64,000 nt of DNA from Winogradskyella epiphytica (GTDB lineage Bacteria > Bacteroidota > Bacteroidia > Flavobacteriales > Flavobacteriaceae): assembly GCF_003217215.1 (NCBI RefSeq), contig NZ_QJTD01000006.1, positions 67,427-131,426 of the forward strand, written 5' to 3'. Position numbers and translations under genes: made by a program. Within the stretch, counting starts at the first letter, position 1. Each line of letters starts with the position of its first letter. Positions 30,030 to 38,171 of this stretch are shown in pieces. The notes beneath the pieces were generated by a model. The model saw only the letters and a list, made by a program, of their open reading frames with translations. It had not been told where the DNA came from and ran no database searches.

Positions 30030-32930
30030 ATGAAAACCTTTATTTGCTTAATTTTTAGCTTATTTTTATTTCAAAGTTTATCTGCCCAAAAGTTATCTAA
30101 TTCTCAAATTTCTTCATTGATTGAATCTTATAAAGAAGACATCAGAGGACCTTACCATCGTATCAAGTGGTTTTGTAAGGATGGCAGTGTAAGAGAGCCA
30201 AAAGATCCATGTCCTGATAATATTGGAGGCGGCATTCAACATGCAACATTTAAAACTTCAGCTTTAAATTTAAGAAAGACGAATCAATTGTATTTTGCTG
30301 AAATATTAGCTTCAAACGATATTAAGGCTTTTCTGAATAAAGACGATAATTATAATAGACTAAAGCAATACCAACTCAATAAATACTTAGCGAGTGTCGA
30401 TGACGGTTGGATTTTAAGAAAGGGGCAATTTTACAGAGGAGCGCTTCAGTCTGAAGACGAAGAAGCTTGGGGAAGAACATTTTTTGAAACTGTGTTAAAG
30501 AATGACGAATTTATTCACAGCAACTACTATTTAATTAAGCAGGCATTAAAGGATATTCCACATAACGGTGATACAAATATTGCACAATTAATGAGAAGCC
30601 AATCGAAGGTGATTTCAGAAGATTATACGGCCTTTATGGATTTAAGAATTAAAATTCACGGTCAGCCGGAAGCTTCAGATGTTTCTAAAGTTGAACAATT
30701 TTATAGCCATCATAAATATAAATTATCAGAGGAACTTCAAAAGGATTTTGACGAGTTAATTCAGACGATGAAGGCCAATTATGCGCCTTTAGATATTTCG
30801 AAATTTGAAGAGCGAATCAATAAGCTTCCAAAATCTAATGCTGTTACGGAACATTTATTAGATTTCATCACGTCAAATAAAGACACGAGACCTACAGTTA
30901 TCATTCCTAATATTACGGAAGCGTTACATGCTATTCGATCTGGACTTACCTCGTATTCCTCTTCAAAAAACAGGTTGGAAGTTTTAGATATATCGAACGA
31001 CTTAGAGCATTATTTATTGACAAAAGCACAAGAATGGCAACCCGAAAATCTTCAAGGGAATTTATATAAAATTATGACTTTGGTTTGTGCAGCCAACGGC
31101 ACAGGATTAATTGAAGATTGGGAATACAATGCTATAGAAACTCAATTAGTAGACATTTACACGTCGGAGGATTTAAATGTTGAAAAATTATCTGAATTTC
31201 TAACAATTTCACGCAGTGTCGTAGAGTGGAGTGCAGCCATGGCAAAAGCTAACTATATCGATGTGGTAAATACTTATACTGCCTTTGAGCCTTTGGCTTA
31301 TGGGTTTATTGACGATAGAGTGAGAAGTAGCGTGGCTTTGAGTTTAGGTGAAGCCGTAAGTCGATTAGGAAGTTTTTTCGCTGATATCACGAATTTAAAT
31401 AATGCTGTTCTTAACTTGAAGAACGCCTCTAGCTTTAGAGGTTTAAACCCAGGTTATGCTTTTGGAGAATTAGTGGTGGTTGATGGCAACCCGGATGAGA
31501 TTGAAGTCGATTCGAAGAAAATTTATGTATTTGAAAGACCGCCTGCCGATTTAAAACCAGTTGCAGGAATTATGACTGTTTCTGAAGGTAATTTAGTATC
31601 ACACGTACAATTATTAGCTAGAAACTTAGGCATCCCGAATGCGGCTTTGTCTTATGATAACCTAAAAGACTTAAAGTCTTACCATGGAAAGAAGGTATTT
31701 TATGCGGTTTCTAATAAAGGAAATTTAGTAGTAAAAACCTCTGATGATATGTCGACCTTAGAAAAGGAGTTGTTCAGTAAACAAGAACGCAGTAAGAACA
31801 TCGTTGAAGTTCCTGTAGATCAGATTCAATTAGATAAAACGAATGTGATTAATATGCGTGATGTAGATGCTAATGATTCTGGTAAGTTCTGTGGTCCAAA
31901 AGCGGCGAATTTAGGAGAACTTAAAAAAATGTTTCCAGAGAATGTGGTGGAAGGTTTAATCATTCCTTTTGGAATATTTAGAGCACATATGGATCAGCCA
32001 ATGCCAAATCAATCTAAGTCGTATTGGACCTATCTCAACGACACTTTTAACAAAGCGAAGCAAATGCAAGCGGATGGTTCAAGTGAGTCTGAAGTTGAAG
32101 CCTTTCAATTAGCCGCCTTAGATCACTTACATAAAGCTATAATTAATATTCCTTTACAGGCCGAATTTGTTTCAGACTTAAAAAAACAATTCAAGTCCAC
32201 TTTTGGAAATTCACTTGGAAACGAGCCTGTGTTTTTAAGAAGTGATACGAATATGGAAGACTTAAAGGAATTTACAGGGGCTGGATTGAATCTTACACTT
32301 TTCAACATTTTAAAAGAAGACGAAATATTGAATGGAATAAAGCGTGTTTGGGCTTCAGCATATACAGAACGAAGCTTTAAGTGGAGACAGAAATATTTAT
32401 CGAATCCGGAAAATGTATTCCCTTCAATTTTAATTATTCCAAGTGTAGATGTGGACTATTCTGGAGTTATGATTACAAAAGGTATTAATTCAGGAAATGA
32501 TGACGATTTAACCGTAGCTTTTAGTCGTGGCGCAGGTGGAGCCGTAGATGGTCAATCGGCAGAAACACGATTAATCACTAAAACCTACACACAGTTATTA
32601 ACGCCTGCACGTCAACCTGATTATATTCGTTTACCTAAAACTGGTGGAACTAAAAAGTATGAAACTGGATTTGACTCTCCAATTCTTAATGCTCAGAATA
32701 TTGAAGATACTAAAGCCATGGCAAAGAAGGTAAGGGATAAAATGGATCCTGAGTCGACTTCAAAATCGCAGGCTTATGATGTGGAGTTTGGATTTCAGGA
32801 TAATAAGTTATGGTTATTTCAAATCCGTCCTTTTGTTGAAAATAAAAGTGCTAAGAGTTCTGAGTATTTAGCCTCTATAGCACCACAGATTGATTTAAAG
32901 CAAGCTGTTAATCGTAAAACAAAATTATAA
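30030..32930 (+). CDS. exported PEP-synthase-like dikinase (phosphohistidine domain plus ATP-binding domain)
   Basis: A 966-residue protein with a clear signal peptide (MKTFICLIFSLFLFQSLSAQ), so it is predicted in the periplasm or beyond. Residues ~20-470 are helical and of unknown type. The mobile phosphohistidine domain of PEP-utilising enzymes follows (~470-570), with the likely phospho-acceptor His525 in NLVSHVQLLARNLGIPNAAL. The PPDK-type ATP-binding domain then runs from ~615 to the end: GPKAANLGELKKMFP, VFLRSDTNMEDLKEFTGAG and EFGFQDNKLWLFQIRPF. There is no C-terminal PEP/pyruvate barrel. This swivel-then-ATP order is that of glucan water dikinases, not PEP synthase. It would transfer phosphate from ATP to an unknown acceptor. 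The next gene begins in its stop codon (TAATG). Confidence 0.88.
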   Translation: MKTFICLIFSLFLFQSLSAQKLSNSQISSLIESYKEDIRGPYHRIKWFCKDGSVREPKDPCPDNIGGGIQHATFKTSALNLRKTNQLYFAEILASNDIKAFLNKDDNYNRLKQYQLNKYLASVDDGWILRKGQFYRGALQSEDEEAWGRTFFETVLKNDEFIHSNYYLIKQALKDIPHNGDTNIAQLMRSQSKVISEDYTAFMDLRIKIHGQPEASDVSKVEQFYSHHKYKLSEELQKDFDELIQTMKANYAPLDISKFEERINKLPKSNAVTEHLLDFITSNKDTRPTVIIPNITEALHAIRSGLTSYSSSKNRLEVLDISNDLEHYLLTKAQEWQPENLQGNLYKIMTLVCAANGTGLIEDWEYNAIETQLVDIYTSEDLNVEKLSEFLTISRSVVEWSAAMAKANYIDVVNTYTAFEPLAYGFIDDRVRSSVALSLGEAVSRLGSFFADITNLNNAVLNLKNASSFRGLNPGYAFGELVVVDGNPDEIEVDSKKIYVFERPPADLKPVAGIMTVSEGNLVSHVQLLARNLGIPNAALSYDNLKDLKSYHGKKVFYAVSNKGNLVVKTSDDMSTLEKELFSKQERSKNIVEVPVDQIQLDKTNVINMRDVDANDSGKFCGPKAANLGELKKMFPENVVEGLIIPFGIFRAHMDQPMPNQSKSYWTYLNDTFNKAKQMQADGSSESEVEAFQLAALDHLHKAIINIPLQAEFVSDLKKQFKSTFGNSLGNEPVFLRSDTNMEDLKEFTGAGLNLTLFNILKEDEILNGIKRVWASAYTERSFKWRQKYLSNPENVFPSILIIPSVDVDYSGVMITKGINSGNDDDLTVAFSRGAGGAVDGQSAETRLITKTYTQLLTPARQPDYIRLPKTGGTKKYETGFDSPILNAQNIEDTKAMAKKVRDKMDPESTSKSQAYDVEFGFQDNKLWLFQIRPFVENKSAKSSEYLASIAPQIDLKQAVNRKTKL

Positions 32931-34243
32931 TGAGAAAAGTATACATCATATTGGCTGTTGTCGCCATTTCAATTTCGTTTGGATTCACCACCATGTATCC
33001 CATAGATGGTTTTAAGCGTACAGGTATTAAGCGATTGTATCAAATTCAAAAATTTGTGGAAGACAGTGTGCTTTATAAAAGAATTCCATTTGGAGCTTAT
33101 AAAAAGTTAGAAGACATTAAGCTCAATCTAACTTCGGTTAAAGATAGTATGGATCAAATATTAGTGGAGGATAATGACTTTGCTAAACGTATTAAAAGTC
33201 TTTTTCCTAACGGCGCTTATTCTGCAGCTGTTTTAGATATGTCTAATCCTGATGATTTAAAATATGCTGAGTATAGAGAAAATGTAGGTTACCAGCCAGG
33301 AAGTGTTGGAAAGTTAGCTGTGCTTAATGCGGTGTTTTATCAAATGGCAAAGATTTGTCCAGATTCTTGGGAAGATCGTGTGATGTATCTTAAAGATATT
33401 AGAGTGCCTTCCAGATATTGGGGAACGGGAGATCATCATACAGTGCCTATTTACGATATTGAAAAGGATAAGTTGGTGAAGCGTCAAGTTGTAGCTAGTG
33501 ATGAATTTTCACTTTACGAATGGTTAGATCATATGGTTTCTGTGAGTAATAACGGAGCCGCAAGCGTCATGTTTAGAGAAGCGATTTTAATGGCTGCATT
33601 TGGGCCTGAATATGTAAACATCACTGAAAAACAAGCTGAAACCTATTTTAAAGAAACTCCAAAGGACTCTTTAACTAATTTGGCGCATAGTGTGGTAAAT
33701 GATCCATTAAGGGAGCTGGGCATCACTGAAGACGAATGGAGGCTAGGTGGTATGTTTACTAGAGGACCGGAAAAGTATGTAGGACGTAAAGGTGGAAGCA
33801 TAGGAACACCAAAAGGACTTATGAAGTATTTGGTGCGTATAGAACAAGGAACAGCAGTAGACGAAAATTCTAGTTTAGAAATGAAACGTCTGATGTATCT
33901 TACCGATAGAAGAATTAGATATGCTAAGTCGCCACGCTTAGACAGTGCCGCTGTTTATTTCAAATCGGGAAGTTATTATAAATGCGATCGAGTAAAGAAT
34001 CCTAATTGTAGTGCTTACGCTGGGAATGTATTTAATTATATGAATTCTGTAATAACGGTTGAACACGATGATGGTGTAAAGTATATTGTTTGTCTTATGA
34101 CTAATGTACTCAACCGAAATTCGGCAGGAGCGCATATGTATTTAGCGAGTAAAATAGACGACTTAATTACTCAAGACAATTCAAAGCCTGAAGTGAAAGA
34201 AGTGCCTTATAAAGATGATGAGGACACTGGTAATGATGGTTAA
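32930..34243 (+). CDS. exported serine hydrolase, beta-lactamase/transpeptidase-like fold
   Basis: A 437-residue exported SxxK enzyme. The N-terminal hydrophobic segment (residues ~4-21) is a signal peptide or anchor. The three penicillin-recognising motifs are present: S125-V-G-K128 in GSVGKLAVLNAV, SNN in MVSVSNNGAASVMF (about 204), and KSG in YFKSGSYYKC (about 345). The region GSIGTPKGLMKYLVRIEQG resembles the helix after the omega loop of class A enzymes, but the class A Glu166 equivalent is not obvious. The tail (~415-437) is acidic. It is translationally coupled to the exported dikinase. It is homologous to the lipoprotein encoded at 37095 and could cut peptides, esters or amides. Confidence 0.85.
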   Translation: MRKVYIILAVVAISISFGFTTMYPIDGFKRTGIKRLYQIQKFVEDSVLYKRIPFGAYKKLEDIKLNLTSVKDSMDQILVEDNDFAKRIKSLFPNGAYSAAVLDMSNPDDLKYAEYRENVGYQPGSVGKLAVLNAVFYQMAKICPDSWEDRVMYLKDIRVPSRYWGTGDHHTVPIYDIEKDKLVKRQVVASDEFSLYEWLDHMVSVSNNGAASVMFREAILMAAFGPEYVNITEKQAETYFKETPKDSLTNLAHSVVNDPLRELGITEDEWRLGGMFTRGPEKYVGRKGGSIGTPKGLMKYLVRIEQGTAVDENSSLEMKRLMYLTDRRIRYAKSPRLDSAAVYFKSGSYYKCDRVKNPNCSAYAGNVFNYMNSVITVEHDDGVKYIVCLMTNVLNRNSAGAHMYLASKIDDLITQDNSKPEVKEVPYKDDEDTGNDG

Positions 34244-34244
34244 A

Positions 34245-37082
34245 TTATCGCTTTACATTGAGCAAGCGTAAAGTCTCTAAAGCATAGGTGCTTACGTCTT
34301 TATTTTTGTGAATGATTTGCGATTTTACTAAAGCTATATAGGAGCTGTCGTTAAGTGCTCTTATAAGTTGAAGCACTTCTAATTTCATACGTTTACTACG
34401 CCTTTTAAGTAAGTTTCGCAATAATACCTGTTCACTTAATATAGTGAGCTCTAAAGAGGTTTTAGTTAGAGGTTTGTCTTCGTCGACGCTATAATATTCT
34501 ATAATAGGTAAAATCTGAGTTTTAATTTGGCTCTGTAAAAGATTGTCTAAGAACTCCAACGCATTGACTTGAGCTTCTTTAACATCACTAATGAGTCCGG
34601 AATAGCTCACTTTAATATCAGTTTCGTCATAGAGCAGACTTAATAATTTAAAGATAGACTTCAAACTGGTGTGTAGTTGTTCATCCAATACAGCGATAAT
34701 ACTATTTCTAGCGCTTAGAATATCATTTTTTTGATTTTCTGGAAAGCCTTTATCTATTTCAGAATTTACAATGGCTCGCATAGAAGCTAAGGCGTCTAGA
34801 GATTCTTTTCCGTATCTGCATTCTCGAACAATTTCCTTCTTTAATCGTCTTTTACTAAAGTATAAGGTGTCATTATTTGTTTTCAATTTGATCAATGCTT
34901 TAGTCGCTTCAAATCGTGTATTAACATCTTTACTTTTAAGGAATCCCATCAATACTTTAACGGATCTTTGATTATTAAACGATCGAATCAACAAAGGTAA
35001 ATAGCGTTTAGCTGCATTATTTAATTCGTCACTCTCTTCTAATTCAATTATCGTTTTGGTGAGGCTAGTACTGTAGTTTTTTAGTGCTTTAATGGCTGCT
35101 TTTCTAAATTTTTTCTGAGCTAAGAAATCGATTAGCACTTTGCTGTACCTTTCGTGTGAGGTAATACCAGCAGCTTTAATGGCGTGCTTTACAATATATG
35201 GATTTGTGTTTTGAAGGTGTTTGTCAATGTATGTATAATAGGTTTCGTAATTAGAGTTTCCAATAGTTAATAATAACTTCGCAATGTCTGCTTTTCTTTC
35301 TTCGCTATTTTCGTTTGATAGTTCTTTCAGTCTTCGTTCAATTCTGTCTTTAAGTTGAAAACGACGTCCTAAACTTTCGTTATCACGAATCTCTTCCGAT
35401 AGACATAATAGTGCAGCACTTGAGATAAAAGGATCTTTATGGTCTAAATATTCCGTAAAGAAATCGTTTTGTGAAACATTAGAATGTTCTAAAACATAAC
35501 TTAAAGCGACATGTACTAATTGATCGTCGCTAGAATTAATATAGGGTCTTATTTTATCAATAGCCGCACCTTTATCATGAATATAGAGTTGTTTAATGAC
35601 TTCAGATTTTACTTTGTTTGAAGGGAAATCTAAAAGTCTAATAATTTCAGGACGTAAGGATTTTATTTTATAAAGACTGAAGCGATCTAGAACGGATAAA
35701 ATGTCTTTTTCATTATCTGATTGTAGCACTTTTCTTGTAAGCTCTAAAGTCCTCTCTTTTCTCATTTTATCCGTTTGAATACCATTTACATTCAGATTTC
35801 TTTGAATATTTTGTCTAAAAGAATTGAAGTAAGCTTCACGTAATTTATATATGAGAATAATCCAGATGAAGGTAAGCAGCAATACTATAATTGTAATATA
35901 AGTGGATGGAAGGTCTAAACGTTTTACAAAGAGGAGCAGCATTAAGCCAGCTAATCCTGTAGCTATACTATCTACCGCTACGTCTATAAAGGACTTTGCT
36001 TGGTTTTTTATCTGAAAAGGAATTGGCATTATAGATAATTCTACGGCCGCTTTATTTAAGGATTGTTTAAAACTGCCATCGATACCTTTAATGATAATTA
36101 AAACCCAAAGTTCTGGGAATGTTAGGAATAGTAAGCTTCCTAAGGCTAATCCCAAGGGTAAGATTAATAAGGTACTTGAAACGCCGAGTTTACTAAGCAC
36201 TCTGTTAGTTAAAAACAATTGAAGAGCTAGGGCAATAACGTTAAACGATGAAAACCAAAATCCGAAGAAAGATGCTAATTCATCAGGATCAGGAATGGCT
36301 TTATTAGCAAAATCACTGAATTGAAAATCGACTAGTTTTGCGACAATTACACCTAATCCAGTAATCAAAGCTAGATATGTAAGATGTCGTGATTTTGATA
36401 TGATTCTTATGGCAGGTTCATGGGAGTCGCTATCGGCATCTTTACGCTGAGCCCTAACATAAGTGTTGAGTTTTTTAATTCTAAGACTCCAAATCTTTCT
36501 CAATATTGGAATACATACCATAAGCAATGCAGCGGCTACAATAATGGCCGTAGCATTACCAAATTTAGAGACAATGATACTTGTTAAATAGCCTCCAAAT
36601 ACGCCACCAGCTATGGCACCAGCACCTATAAAACCAAATAATCGTTTGGCCTCACGAGTATTAAACACAAGATTGGCTAAAATCCAAAACTGTGATGTAG
36701 TAATCACTGCAAATAACGAAACTCCAATATAATAGAGGTAGAGGAGCCAATCATTTAAATTGGCGGTTCTTAAGATGATTATAGCTAAAGTGATAAAACT
36801 TAAGCTGAAAAAAGTAAGTGAGGTGGTTGTAACTCTAAGAAATGAAAATCGTTTTACCCATTGATTGTAAAAGTATGTGGTGATAACGGCAATAAGAGCG
36901 ACTAATAAATAACCAAAAGGCAGGTGTTCTGCTCCAAGTTCTGATAAGAATAACGCATTTACAATCGGTTTGATAATCAGTAAAACGGTGATTATCAAAA
37001 AGATATAAATTTGCATTAAAAAAGAGATGTGTATTTCACCATCTCTTATACCGAATGTTGTATTTAAAAACTTTCTAATCAC
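34245..37082 (-). CDS. NTT-like (Npt1/Npt2) membrane transporter fused to HEAT repeats
   Basis: A 945-residue two-part protein. Residues 1 to ~425 hold about 12 membrane helices. Their pattern (FGIRDGEIHISFLMQIYIFL, then KPIVNALFLSELGAEHLPFG) resembles the ATP/ADP or nucleotide translocase (NTT) family more than ordinary MFS carriers. From ~430 on there are no membrane segments. Instead there are serial paired helices of HEAT type, for example HDKGAAIDKIRPYINSSDDQ, QNDFFTEYLDHKDPFISSAA and SVKVLMGFLKSKDVNTRFEA. NTT-HEAT fusions are known in environmental bacteria with little functional data. It is encoded 12 bases after the class A-like lipoprotein gene and ends 1 base from the convergent hydrolase gene. 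The transported substrate is unproven. Confidence 0.8.
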   Translation of the reverse strand: MIRKFLNTTFGIRDGEIHISFLMQIYIFLIITVLLIIKPIVNALFLSELGAEHLPFGYLLVALIAVITTYFYNQWVKRFSFLRVTTTSLTFFSLSFITLAIIILRTANLNDWLLYLYYIGVSLFAVITTSQFWILANLVFNTREAKRLFGFIGAGAIAGGVFGGYLTSIIVSKFGNATAIIVAAALLMVCIPILRKIWSLRIKKLNTYVRAQRKDADSDSHEPAIRIISKSRHLTYLALITGLGVIVAKLVDFQFSDFANKAIPDPDELASFFGFWFSSFNVIALALQLFLTNRVLSKLGVSSTLLILPLGLALGSLLFLTFPELWVLIIIKGIDGSFKQSLNKAAVELSIMPIPFQIKNQAKSFIDVAVDSIATGLAGLMLLLFVKRLDLPSTYITIIVLLLTFIWIILIYKLREAYFNSFRQNIQRNLNVNGIQTDKMRKERTLELTRKVLQSDNEKDILSVLDRFSLYKIKSLRPEIIRLLDFPSNKVKSEVIKQLYIHDKGAAIDKIRPYINSSDDQLVHVALSYVLEHSNVSQNDFFTEYLDHKDPFISSAALLCLSEEIRDNESLGRRFQLKDRIERRLKELSNENSEERKADIAKLLLTIGNSNYETYYTYIDKHLQNTNPYIVKHAIKAAGITSHERYSKVLIDFLAQKKFRKAAIKALKNYSTSLTKTIIELEESDELNNAAKRYLPLLIRSFNNQRSVKVLMGFLKSKDVNTRFEATKALIKLKTNNDTLYFSKRRLKKEIVRECRYGKESLDALASMRAIVNSEIDKGFPENQKNDILSARNSIIAVLDEQLHTSLKSIFKLLSLLYDETDIKVSYSGLISDVKEAQVNALEFLDNLLQSQIKTQILPIIEYYSVDEDKPLTKTSLELTILSEQVLLRNLLKRRSKRMKLEVLQLIRALNDSSYIALVKSQIIHKNKDVSTYALETLRLLNVKR

Positions 37083-37094
37083 TTACTAAAGACT

Positions 37095-38063
37095 TCACAT
37101 TTTTTGCTGCTTGTCTAAAGTACGTGCTTTTTTCATTACTTTTTCTAATGGTTTCACTAAATCTCTAATAATTGTTTCACCGTAATCGTTATCTACCAGA
37201 GCCACAATGATATATCTTCGTTTTGGACCCCAAACTAAAGCCGAGTCTGAATGGTAACTTCTCCATGAACCCGATTTTCTATAAATATCTGCTTGAGGTG
37301 CAATTTGATCGAGTGTATTTACAAACTTATGATGTAATGCAGGATCTTTCATGATTTCTAACATCTCTTTAGAACGTTCATCACTAATTAGATTCCCCAT
37401 CGCTAATTGATAATAGAAACTACATACTTGTTTAGTCGTTGCCGCATGGCTTAAGTTCTTTAATGGCTCTCTGTTAGTGTCGCCACCTCCGCCATAACGT
37501 TTTCCTACCCAAAGTCCACCACCTGTCGCTTCATCATAAAACGCATTTCTTGGAGATCTCACTACCTCTTCAATTTTAGCATAGCCAACACGATCAATCA
37601 TTCTTGTTGTTGCCTGATTGTTTGATTTGCTGATCATTTGTTTCATATCATCTCGAATTTCAGGCGTATCTTCCAACTCTCCTTTGTCGATGGCATCCAT
37701 AGATGCTAATAAAACAGCAATTTTAGGTAAGCTTGCGGCATACATCATGTTGTTGTCATTGATGCCTGCGTATTTTATATTCTCAATATTAGTTAAATCG
37801 ACGATTCCAACCGCCATGGCATTATTGGCCACTAAAACTTTCCAAGATTCATTTTTATTGATCTCATTTTCTAAGATAGTTTGTAGTTGAATGTCTCTTA
37901 ATTCTCCTATTTGAGCAATAGAATCTTTAGGTTGTATAGGTAATTGAGTATCGTTTGTTTTTCGAATAACTGGAGATGAATCAGCTATTAAATCTTTTGA
38001 CGAATTTTGCGATTCGCAACTAAATGTAAAAACAAAGAAAAGCAGGAATAAGGTTTTATTCAT
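37095..38063 (-). CDS. class A beta-lactamase-like serine hydrolase lipoprotein
   Basis: Exported SxxK hydrolase with a lipobox (LLFFVFTFSCESQ), hence lipid-anchored. All class A landmarks are in order: S-L-P-K (nucleophile near residue 111), S-N-N in ISKSNNQAT (SDN position, ~147), E-P-L-K-N (~199-203, spaced as Glu166 and Asn170), then HAATTKQVCSFYYQLA, and KSG in YRKSGSWRSYHSD (~263). The gap between SNN and the Glu is longer than in classic enzymes, with a Gly-rich insert. An alternative ATG at 38087 adds 8 residues. It could be a beta-lactamase or a related peptidase/esterase; resistance cannot be claimed. It is first in an operon with the NTT-HEAT gene. Confidence 0.87.
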   Translation of the reverse strand: MNKTLFLLFFVFTFSCESQNSSKDLIADSSPVIRKTNDTQLPIQPKDSIAQIGELRDIQLQTILENEINKNESWKVLVANNAMAVGIVDLTNIENIKYAGINDNNMMYAASLPKIAVLLASMDAIDKGELEDTPEIRDDMKQMISKSNNQATTRMIDRVGYAKIEEVVRSPRNAFYDEATGGGLWVGKRYGGGGDTNREPLKNLSHAATTKQVCSFYYQLAMGNLISDERSKEMLEIMKDPALHHKFVNTLDQIAPQADIYRKSGSWRSYHSDSALVWGPKRRYIIVALVDNDYGETIIRDLVKPLEKVMKKARTLDKQQKM

Positions 38064-38171
38064 AAAAATTTTACGTGTTAAATTCATCTATGTACGTGCA
38101 AGTTACATAAGATAGATTGCAATAAGTGTTAAATATGGTCTTAAATTTTTCATAATATTCCATATTGAAGT

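Follow-up and report, generated by a model that had tools for sequence, protein, structure and literature searches.

Layout of the unit

A stretch of 64,000 nucleotides from Winogradskyella epiphytica (assembly GCF_003217215.1, contig NZ_QJTD01000006.1, positions 67,427 to 131,426 of the forward strand; hereafter, the window) was analyzed with regard to four adjacent genes, encoding a predicted exported dikinase (DIK), two SxxK serine hydrolases (SXK1 and SXK2), and a membrane carrier in which an NTT domain is followed by HEAT repeats (NTT-HEAT). Some Bacteroidota keep all four genes as a unit, also where the genes lie apart in the genome. The features are listed below in window coordinates (lengths in amino acids, aa).

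30030..32930, + strand: DIK, predicted exported dikinase, 966 aa; signal-like residues 1-19, mostly helical domain 20-458, swivel domain ~459-585, ATP-grasp domain ~602-944
31404..31784, + strand: swivel (phosphohistidine) domain of DIK, residues 459-585; H525 codon at 31602-31604
31833..32861, + strand: ATP-grasp domain of DIK, residues 602-944
32930..34243, + strand: SXK1, SxxK serine hydrolase, 437 aa; hydrophobic N-terminus, predicted exported or membrane-anchored
34245..37082, - strand: NTT-HEAT carrier, 945 aa, GTG start; 12-helix NTT domain 1-430, HEAT repeats ~440-945
35793..37082, - strand: NTT domain, residues 1-430; invariant K38, K249, D252 and D371
34245..35792, - strand: HEAT half, residues 431-945, predicted cytoplasmic (HEAT_2 in 37/37 homologues; loop charges)
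37095..38087, - strand: SXK2, SxxK serine hydrolase, 330 aa; lipoprotein-like N-terminus in this genome

The genes form two convergent pairs. The start of SXK1 overlaps the stop of DIK by one base (TAATG), the carrier gene starts 12 bases downstream of the end of SXK2 on the same (-) strand, and the 3' ends of SXK1 and NTT-HEAT are one base apart. The four open reading frames (ORFs), their coordinates, the TAATG overlap and the one-base gap had been described in an earlier note made from the sequence alone, and all were borne out.

Linkage of the four genes

One genome per species was scanned with a DIK alignment, resulting in 160 confirmed loci, of which the best 80 were kept; DIK is present in all of them by construction. 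SXK1 was detected in 80/80 loci (tblastn), at 103 bases or less from DIK in 78 of the 79 measured and at 1.6 kb in the remaining one. The carrier was found in 69/80 loci. Among the 11 loci without it, six (L034, L038, L052, L076, L083 and L086) end too early to judge, with a contig edge inside SXK1 or at most ~2 kb after it (69/74 upon their exclusion), and five are full-length loci from Leeuwenhoekiella. All five Leeuwenhoekiella genomes have the carrier elsewhere, adjoined by SXK2 in three of three searched, and therefore the two gene pairs can separate with both being retained. SXK2 was present in 67/80 loci, after correction of a raw count of 68/80 for one SXK1 cross-match (L049, the genome of which has SXK2 elsewhere).

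Flanking genes were recorded at lower counts: PCCB in 20, MFS in 19, ACC in 17, ABC in 16 (including weak matches to other ABC proteins) and SUA5 in 6 of the 80 loci. Clustering of the ORFs from 94 loci placed the four families in 94, 93, 80 and 78 of them, with a limit of 19 loci for any further ORF family that could represent a fifth member. The convergent 3' ends of SXK1 and NTT-HEAT (34243-34245 in the window) were strikingly tight tail-to-tail, ranging from a 24-base overlap to a 17-base gap in 58/69 loci.

Co-occurrence across genomes and joint evolution

In a phylum sample of 395 genomes (thresholds of E 1e-30 for DIK and E 1e-15 for SXK1), DIK was found in 13 genomes and SXK1 in the same 13 (Fisher p = 1.3e-24; the p-values on this sample ignore the relatedness of genomes). 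SXK2 was searched in the 13 DIK genomes only and was present in 13/13; in a separate class sample of 149 genomes, SXK2 was detected in three, the same three with full-length DIK. Sequences of the carrier subfamily (>700 bits, a cut placed after the scores were seen, in the empty range separating 734 from 536 bits) were present in 11 of the 13 DIK genomes and absent from the remaining 382 (Fisher p = 9.8e-20), while at the preset threshold of E 1e-20 the carrier matched in 27/395 genomes, 12 of them among the 13. The two remaining DIK genomes, G313 and G329, hold DIK, SXK1 and SXK2 together without a linked carrier of the subfamily. In G313, an MFS_1 carrier gene (L113:6597-8111) adjoins DIK on the opposite strand and may replace NTT-HEAT.

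The 13 DIK genomes belong to six families, of which four fall outside the class to which the window belongs. All four genes are dispersed in G308 (SXK1 at C1:309474, NTT-HEAT at C1:397893, DIK at C1:547689 and SXK2 at C2:106574), and in G200 the carrier and DIK share a strand. The unit is patchy, since DIK, SXK1 and the carrier are all missing from one genome of the same genus. A chance neighbourhood was ruled out by the presence of SXK1 in every DIK locus, against at most 20/80 for the flanking genes, and by the sharing of the same 13/395 genomes. Co-occurrence and linkage, by which the earlier note had proposed to check its idea of a single system, thus held for the four families.

Pairwise distances were compared in 17-19 loci also holding the flanking PCCB; correlations were used in place of two allele types because, under average linkage, only the carrier separated into two groups of similar size (37 and 31), and the remaining three genes did not. 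DIK distances correlated with those of SXK1 (0.96), NTT-HEAT (0.65) and SXK2 (0.60), while correlations with PCCB were 0.18 for DIK, 0.14 for NTT-HEAT and 0.31 for SXK2. According to these distances, the unit evolves jointly and partly apart from its PCCB neighbour, as lateral exchange would give. In two other Winogradskyella species (L059 and L060), DIK, SXK1 and NTT-HEAT are distant from those of the window (56, 57 and 37% identical), with a close SXK2 (72-74%) and close flanks (85-97%), and in L017 DIK and SXK1 are close to the window and NTT-HEAT is distant. Parts of the unit thus seem to have been exchanged.

The predicted exported dikinase

DIK matched Pfam PPDK_N with 96.7 bits (cut-off 27), the domain was present in 44/44 homologues, and DIK was the only PPDK_N protein found in this genome. 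Its swivel domain carries the motif EGNxVSH, with H525, and a structure search placed its ATP-grasp domain closest to rifampin phosphotransferase (RPH). Export of the proteins of the unit was judged with a hydropathy script, not a trained signal-peptide predictor. A hydrophobic N-terminus was present in 78/79 DIK homologues (the DIK of L014 was not extracted), an A-x-A-Q-like cleavage site was seen in 43/79, and C49 and C61 were invariant in 44/44. DIK is therefore predicted to be exported, as the earlier note had supposed, and a cytoplasmic location runs against these features.

The nearest named relatives of DIK were from Winogradskyella; among the 120 best of 3490 matches, the names of the records also pointed to Calditrichota, Gemmatimonadota and SAR324, in addition to Bacteroidota. 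The class sample yielded 9 matches at E 1e-10, corresponding to three full-length orthologues and six looser relatives. Secreted dikinase-like proteins with the order swivel then ATP-grasp were also observed at L007:523-3108, L010:583-3096 and L006:340-2889, two of them with a type IX secretion system (T9SS) C-terminal sorting domain and the third with a carboxypeptidase-regulatory-like domain.

Database names of the homologues are misleading: they include phosphoenolpyruvate (PEP) synthase and, in Kordia antarctica, prodigiosin synthesizing transferase PigC. The former name, together with the status of DIK as sole PPDK_N protein in the genome, would fit an ordinary PEP synthase or pyruvate phosphate dikinase whose neighbours are unrelated to its work. 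However, the best PEP synthase model reached 92.6 bits on DIK, its cut-off being 883, no Pfam match to the PEP/pyruvate-binding barrel was obtained in any of the 44 homologues, and neither the hydrophobic N-terminus nor the co-occurrence with two hydrolases would be expected. A PEP synthase identity was ruled out by model score, missing barrel match and N-terminus, and the reading as a whole is scarcely credible. The unit also delineates a family of dikinases that are predicted to be exported and often bear the name PEP synthase. Other models gave low scores as well: 51.4 bits against a cut-off of 999 for the RPH equivalog, and a single weak GWD1_pHisD match (E 0.039, 14 bits against a cut-off of 27), with the phosphohistidine domain of glucan, water dikinase (GWD) not reaching E 0.01 in any of the 44 homologues and no starch-binding domain matched in DIK.

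The two hydrolases

Both hydrolases were assigned to Pfam Beta-lactamase2 (31.6 bits for SXK1 and 69.6 bits for SXK2, cut-off 22), as were all scanned homologues of each, and the catalytic SxxK, SxN and KSG motifs were kept in 37/37 SXK1 and 31/31 SXK2 sequences. The two proteins are remote relatives of each other (hhalign probability 95.4, E 1.7e-8), in line with the proposal of the earlier note that each gene pair carries a related hydrolase. Its description as class A-like stands as to superfamily and motifs and fails at the level of the curated class A beta-lactamase model, for which SXK2 scored 19.3 bits against a cut-off of 200 and SXK1 gave no match. Neither came near the cut-off of any named beta-lactamase model, and no solved relatives were found for either at E 0.01. 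Hydrophobic N-termini in 77/77 SXK1 and 63/63 SXK2 homologues suggest that both are exported, and 32/63 SXK2 carry an A-x-A-Q-like site. SXK2 looks like a lipoprotein in the window and in some Winogradskyella; a lipobox-like pattern was found in only 6/63, most homologues having an N-terminus that resembles an ordinary signal peptide.

The family of the hydrolases, the closeness of the DIK ATP-grasp domain to RPH, and a patchy unit evolving partly apart from its chromosomal neighbour would be compatible with a defence island against antibiotics or toxic small molecules, in which DIK would phosphorylate these as RPH does and the hydrolases would cut beta-lactam-like bonds. Yet no match was found between the N-terminal half of DIK and the drug-binding arrangement of RPH (in a structure search that barely probed that domain), the named beta-lactamase models are far from being reached, and such strict co-occurrence of the enzymes, even when dispersed, exceeds the needs of a resistance island. 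We consider a defence role improbable.

The NTT-HEAT carrier

The carrier matched the Pfam TLC ATP/ADP transporter family (50.9 bits, cut-off 21), MFS_1 (49.6 bits) and HEAT_2 (62 bits); the TLC/NTT domain was recovered at E 0.001 or better in 35/37 homologues and HEAT_2 in 37/37. Its carrier domain has a 12-helix predicted fold, of which the nearest solved folds are NTT translocators, and its closest matches by both fold and sequence are ATP/ADP translocators, with ~17-19% identity to the ADP/ATP exchangers AtNTT1 and C. pneumoniae NTT1. A generic MFS origin, which would have undercut the nucleotide transporter of the earlier note, was ruled out, the domain being closest in sequence and predicted fold to NTT translocators and not to other MFS carriers. 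The HEAT half is predicted to be cytoplasmic.

A second branch of NTT carriers

Ten genomes of the phylum sample have NTT-HEAT proteins of 334-536 bits, one of them (G329) also having the three-gene DIK set. In 10/10 of these genomes, a lipoprotein family (F1) lies 10 kb or less from an NTT-family gene, in a total of 11 loci:

L148-L154, L156, L157, L166 and L168: F1 beside NTT-family genes

A further family, F2, occurs in 9 of these 11 loci, with Omp85 in the two members scanned, and L151 holds one calcineurin-like phosphoesterase lipoprotein beside its NTT and F1 genes. F1 has kinase-like motifs (IKFDG, NDxDRRxAN and DMG/DFG) and gave weak HipA-type matches in 2/9 members. Its profile aligned with HipA_2 proteins at E 2.6e-4 (probability 42) with the kinase-like motifs in register, as compared to E 0.26 for a DIK control; no Pfam domain was detected in the 120 best F1 homologues, and the search against solved chains resulted in one chance-level match (E 1.6). 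F1 is thus a second, unrelated and exported candidate enzyme, possibly ATP-dependent, that is tied to NTT carriers.

Second-branch NTT-HEATs retain only the Asp at the position of E385 in AtNTT1, and five of the six single-domain NTTs examined, three of them beside F1, carry D, D and K where AtNTT1 has E245, E385 and K527. In L158, L161 and L162, more distant NTT-HEATs of ~1050 aa adjoin a gene of ~1040-1050 aa, with an NPFPG(L/I)R motif near its start that is common to these genes.

A possible ATP supply for envelope phosphorylation

The four genes may form one envelope phosphorylation system in which NTT-HEAT is predicted to bring ATP out, the most parsimonious account of the unit and a proposal that we regard as about evenly poised. 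DIK would transfer phosphate from ATP via H525 to an acceptor that is periplasmic or part of an envelope polymer, SXK1 and SXK2 would prepare or trim that acceptor, and NTT-HEAT would export ATP from the cytoplasm and take back spent nucleotide. As a net reaction, ATP + acceptor + H2O would give AMP + phospho-acceptor + Pi; PEP synthase and RPH catalyze the same net reaction type. We infer the enzymatic activity, the envelope acceptor, the action of the hydrolases on the same substrate, the ATP cargo and the outward direction. Overall, the corresponding interpretation in the earlier note is partly supported.

Several observations weigh against this proposal. The catalytic residues, conserved as they are, do not prove activity. 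The N-terminal domain of DIK gave no convincing fold match that would point to an acceptor, in a search crowded by the ATP domain in which it was barely probed. No SXK1 cleavage motif was found by the pattern used (0/77), and because of this SXK1 may be membrane-anchored. G313 and G329 manage without a linked carrier. Neither DIK nor F1 was near more distant NTT genes (0/8 loci), and the single-domain NTT loci L167 and L169 are without F1, which speaks against the generality of a pairing between NTTs and exported enzymes. Moreover, the key charged residues of AtNTT1, which we take to be K155, E245, E385 and K527, correspond to Y/F58, S/A/G122, D252 and T375 in the carrier, so that one of four is kept, as Asp.

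The three replacements, together with a different set of residues invariant in 37/37 homologues (K38, K249, D252 and D371) and the two genomes without a linked carrier, favour the main rival, namely the same envelope system with NTT-HEAT moving a cargo other than ATP, e.g., importing the phosphorylated or hydrolysed product, and DIK using periplasmic ATP from another source. Some NTTs are indeed not ATP carriers: the 2017 survey lists a NAD carrier and another protein for which the cited assays showed no nucleotide transport (PMC5381601). On the other hand, the top fold and sequence matches are ATP/ADP translocators, the partner enzyme DIK would need ATP outside the cytoplasm, and the second branch adjoins another candidate ATP-dependent exported enzyme. 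A non-ATP cargo is accordingly possible, if doubtful.

In a broader and tentative extension of the ATP-export proposal, about which we are likewise doubtful, NTT-HEATs would be the ATP exporters of free-living Gram-negatives, that is, inner-membrane exchangers powering extracytoplasmic phosphorylation by an exported dikinase with two SxxK hydrolases on an envelope polymer and, in the sister branch, by a HipA-like lipoprotein kinase, likewise exported, next to an Omp85 barrel. According to one review, bacteria other than obligate intracellular parasites are commonly asserted to be without ADP/ATP transporters, although ATP is said to be required by two periplasmic processes (PMC4289276). No description of an exported dikinase or of the four-gene unit appeared among the papers listed by literature searches. 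The unit supplies the NTT-HEAT carrier with a regular enzymatic partner whose work would require ATP outside the cytoplasm, and it is present in named culture-collection strains; therefore, a periplasmic ATP supply becomes directly testable.

Comparison with known systems

SXK1 and SXK2 share SxxK, SxN, KSG and Beta-lactamase2 with class A beta-lactamases and other SxxK enzymes, but lie far under the equivalog cut-off and are without a solved relative at E 0.01. DIK shares PPDK_N (44/44) with PEP synthase and pyruvate phosphate dikinase, but differs from them in its predicted signal peptide, its domain order and the lack of a PEP/pyruvate domain match. RPH-like dikinases (RPH and the two-part HpeHI, CreHI and PpsAB) likewise have an ATP-grasp and a swivel domain with a phospho-accepting His; however, the order is ATP-grasp, rifampin-binding and swivel in RPH, as opposed to helical domain, swivel and ATP-grasp in DIK, the DIK motif is EGNxVSH and not T/SxxGGxxxH, and DIK is predicted to be exported and is tied to two hydrolases and a carrier. 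In glucan, water dikinases, the phosphohistidine domain precedes a C-terminal ATP domain, an order that DIK shares (swivel 459-585, ATP domain 602-944); in contrast to GWD/PWD, DIK is a predicted exported bacterial protein, its GWD1_pHisD match is below the cut-off, and no starch-binding domain was matched.

The carrier differs from AtNTT1 and C. pneumoniae NTT1 in its HEAT half and in the replacement of three of the four key charged residues. It resembles the NTT-HEAT fusions in that HEAT repeats follow an NTT domain and the bacterium is free-living; the available part of the survey by Major et al. (2017, PMC5381601) presents these fusions as broadly distributed in free-living bacteria and functionally uncharacterised at that time. 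There, only a cyclic-nucleotide-binding protein is given as neighbour, with no enzymatic partner, whereas the subfamily described here is tied to an exported dikinase, as predicted from its N-terminus.

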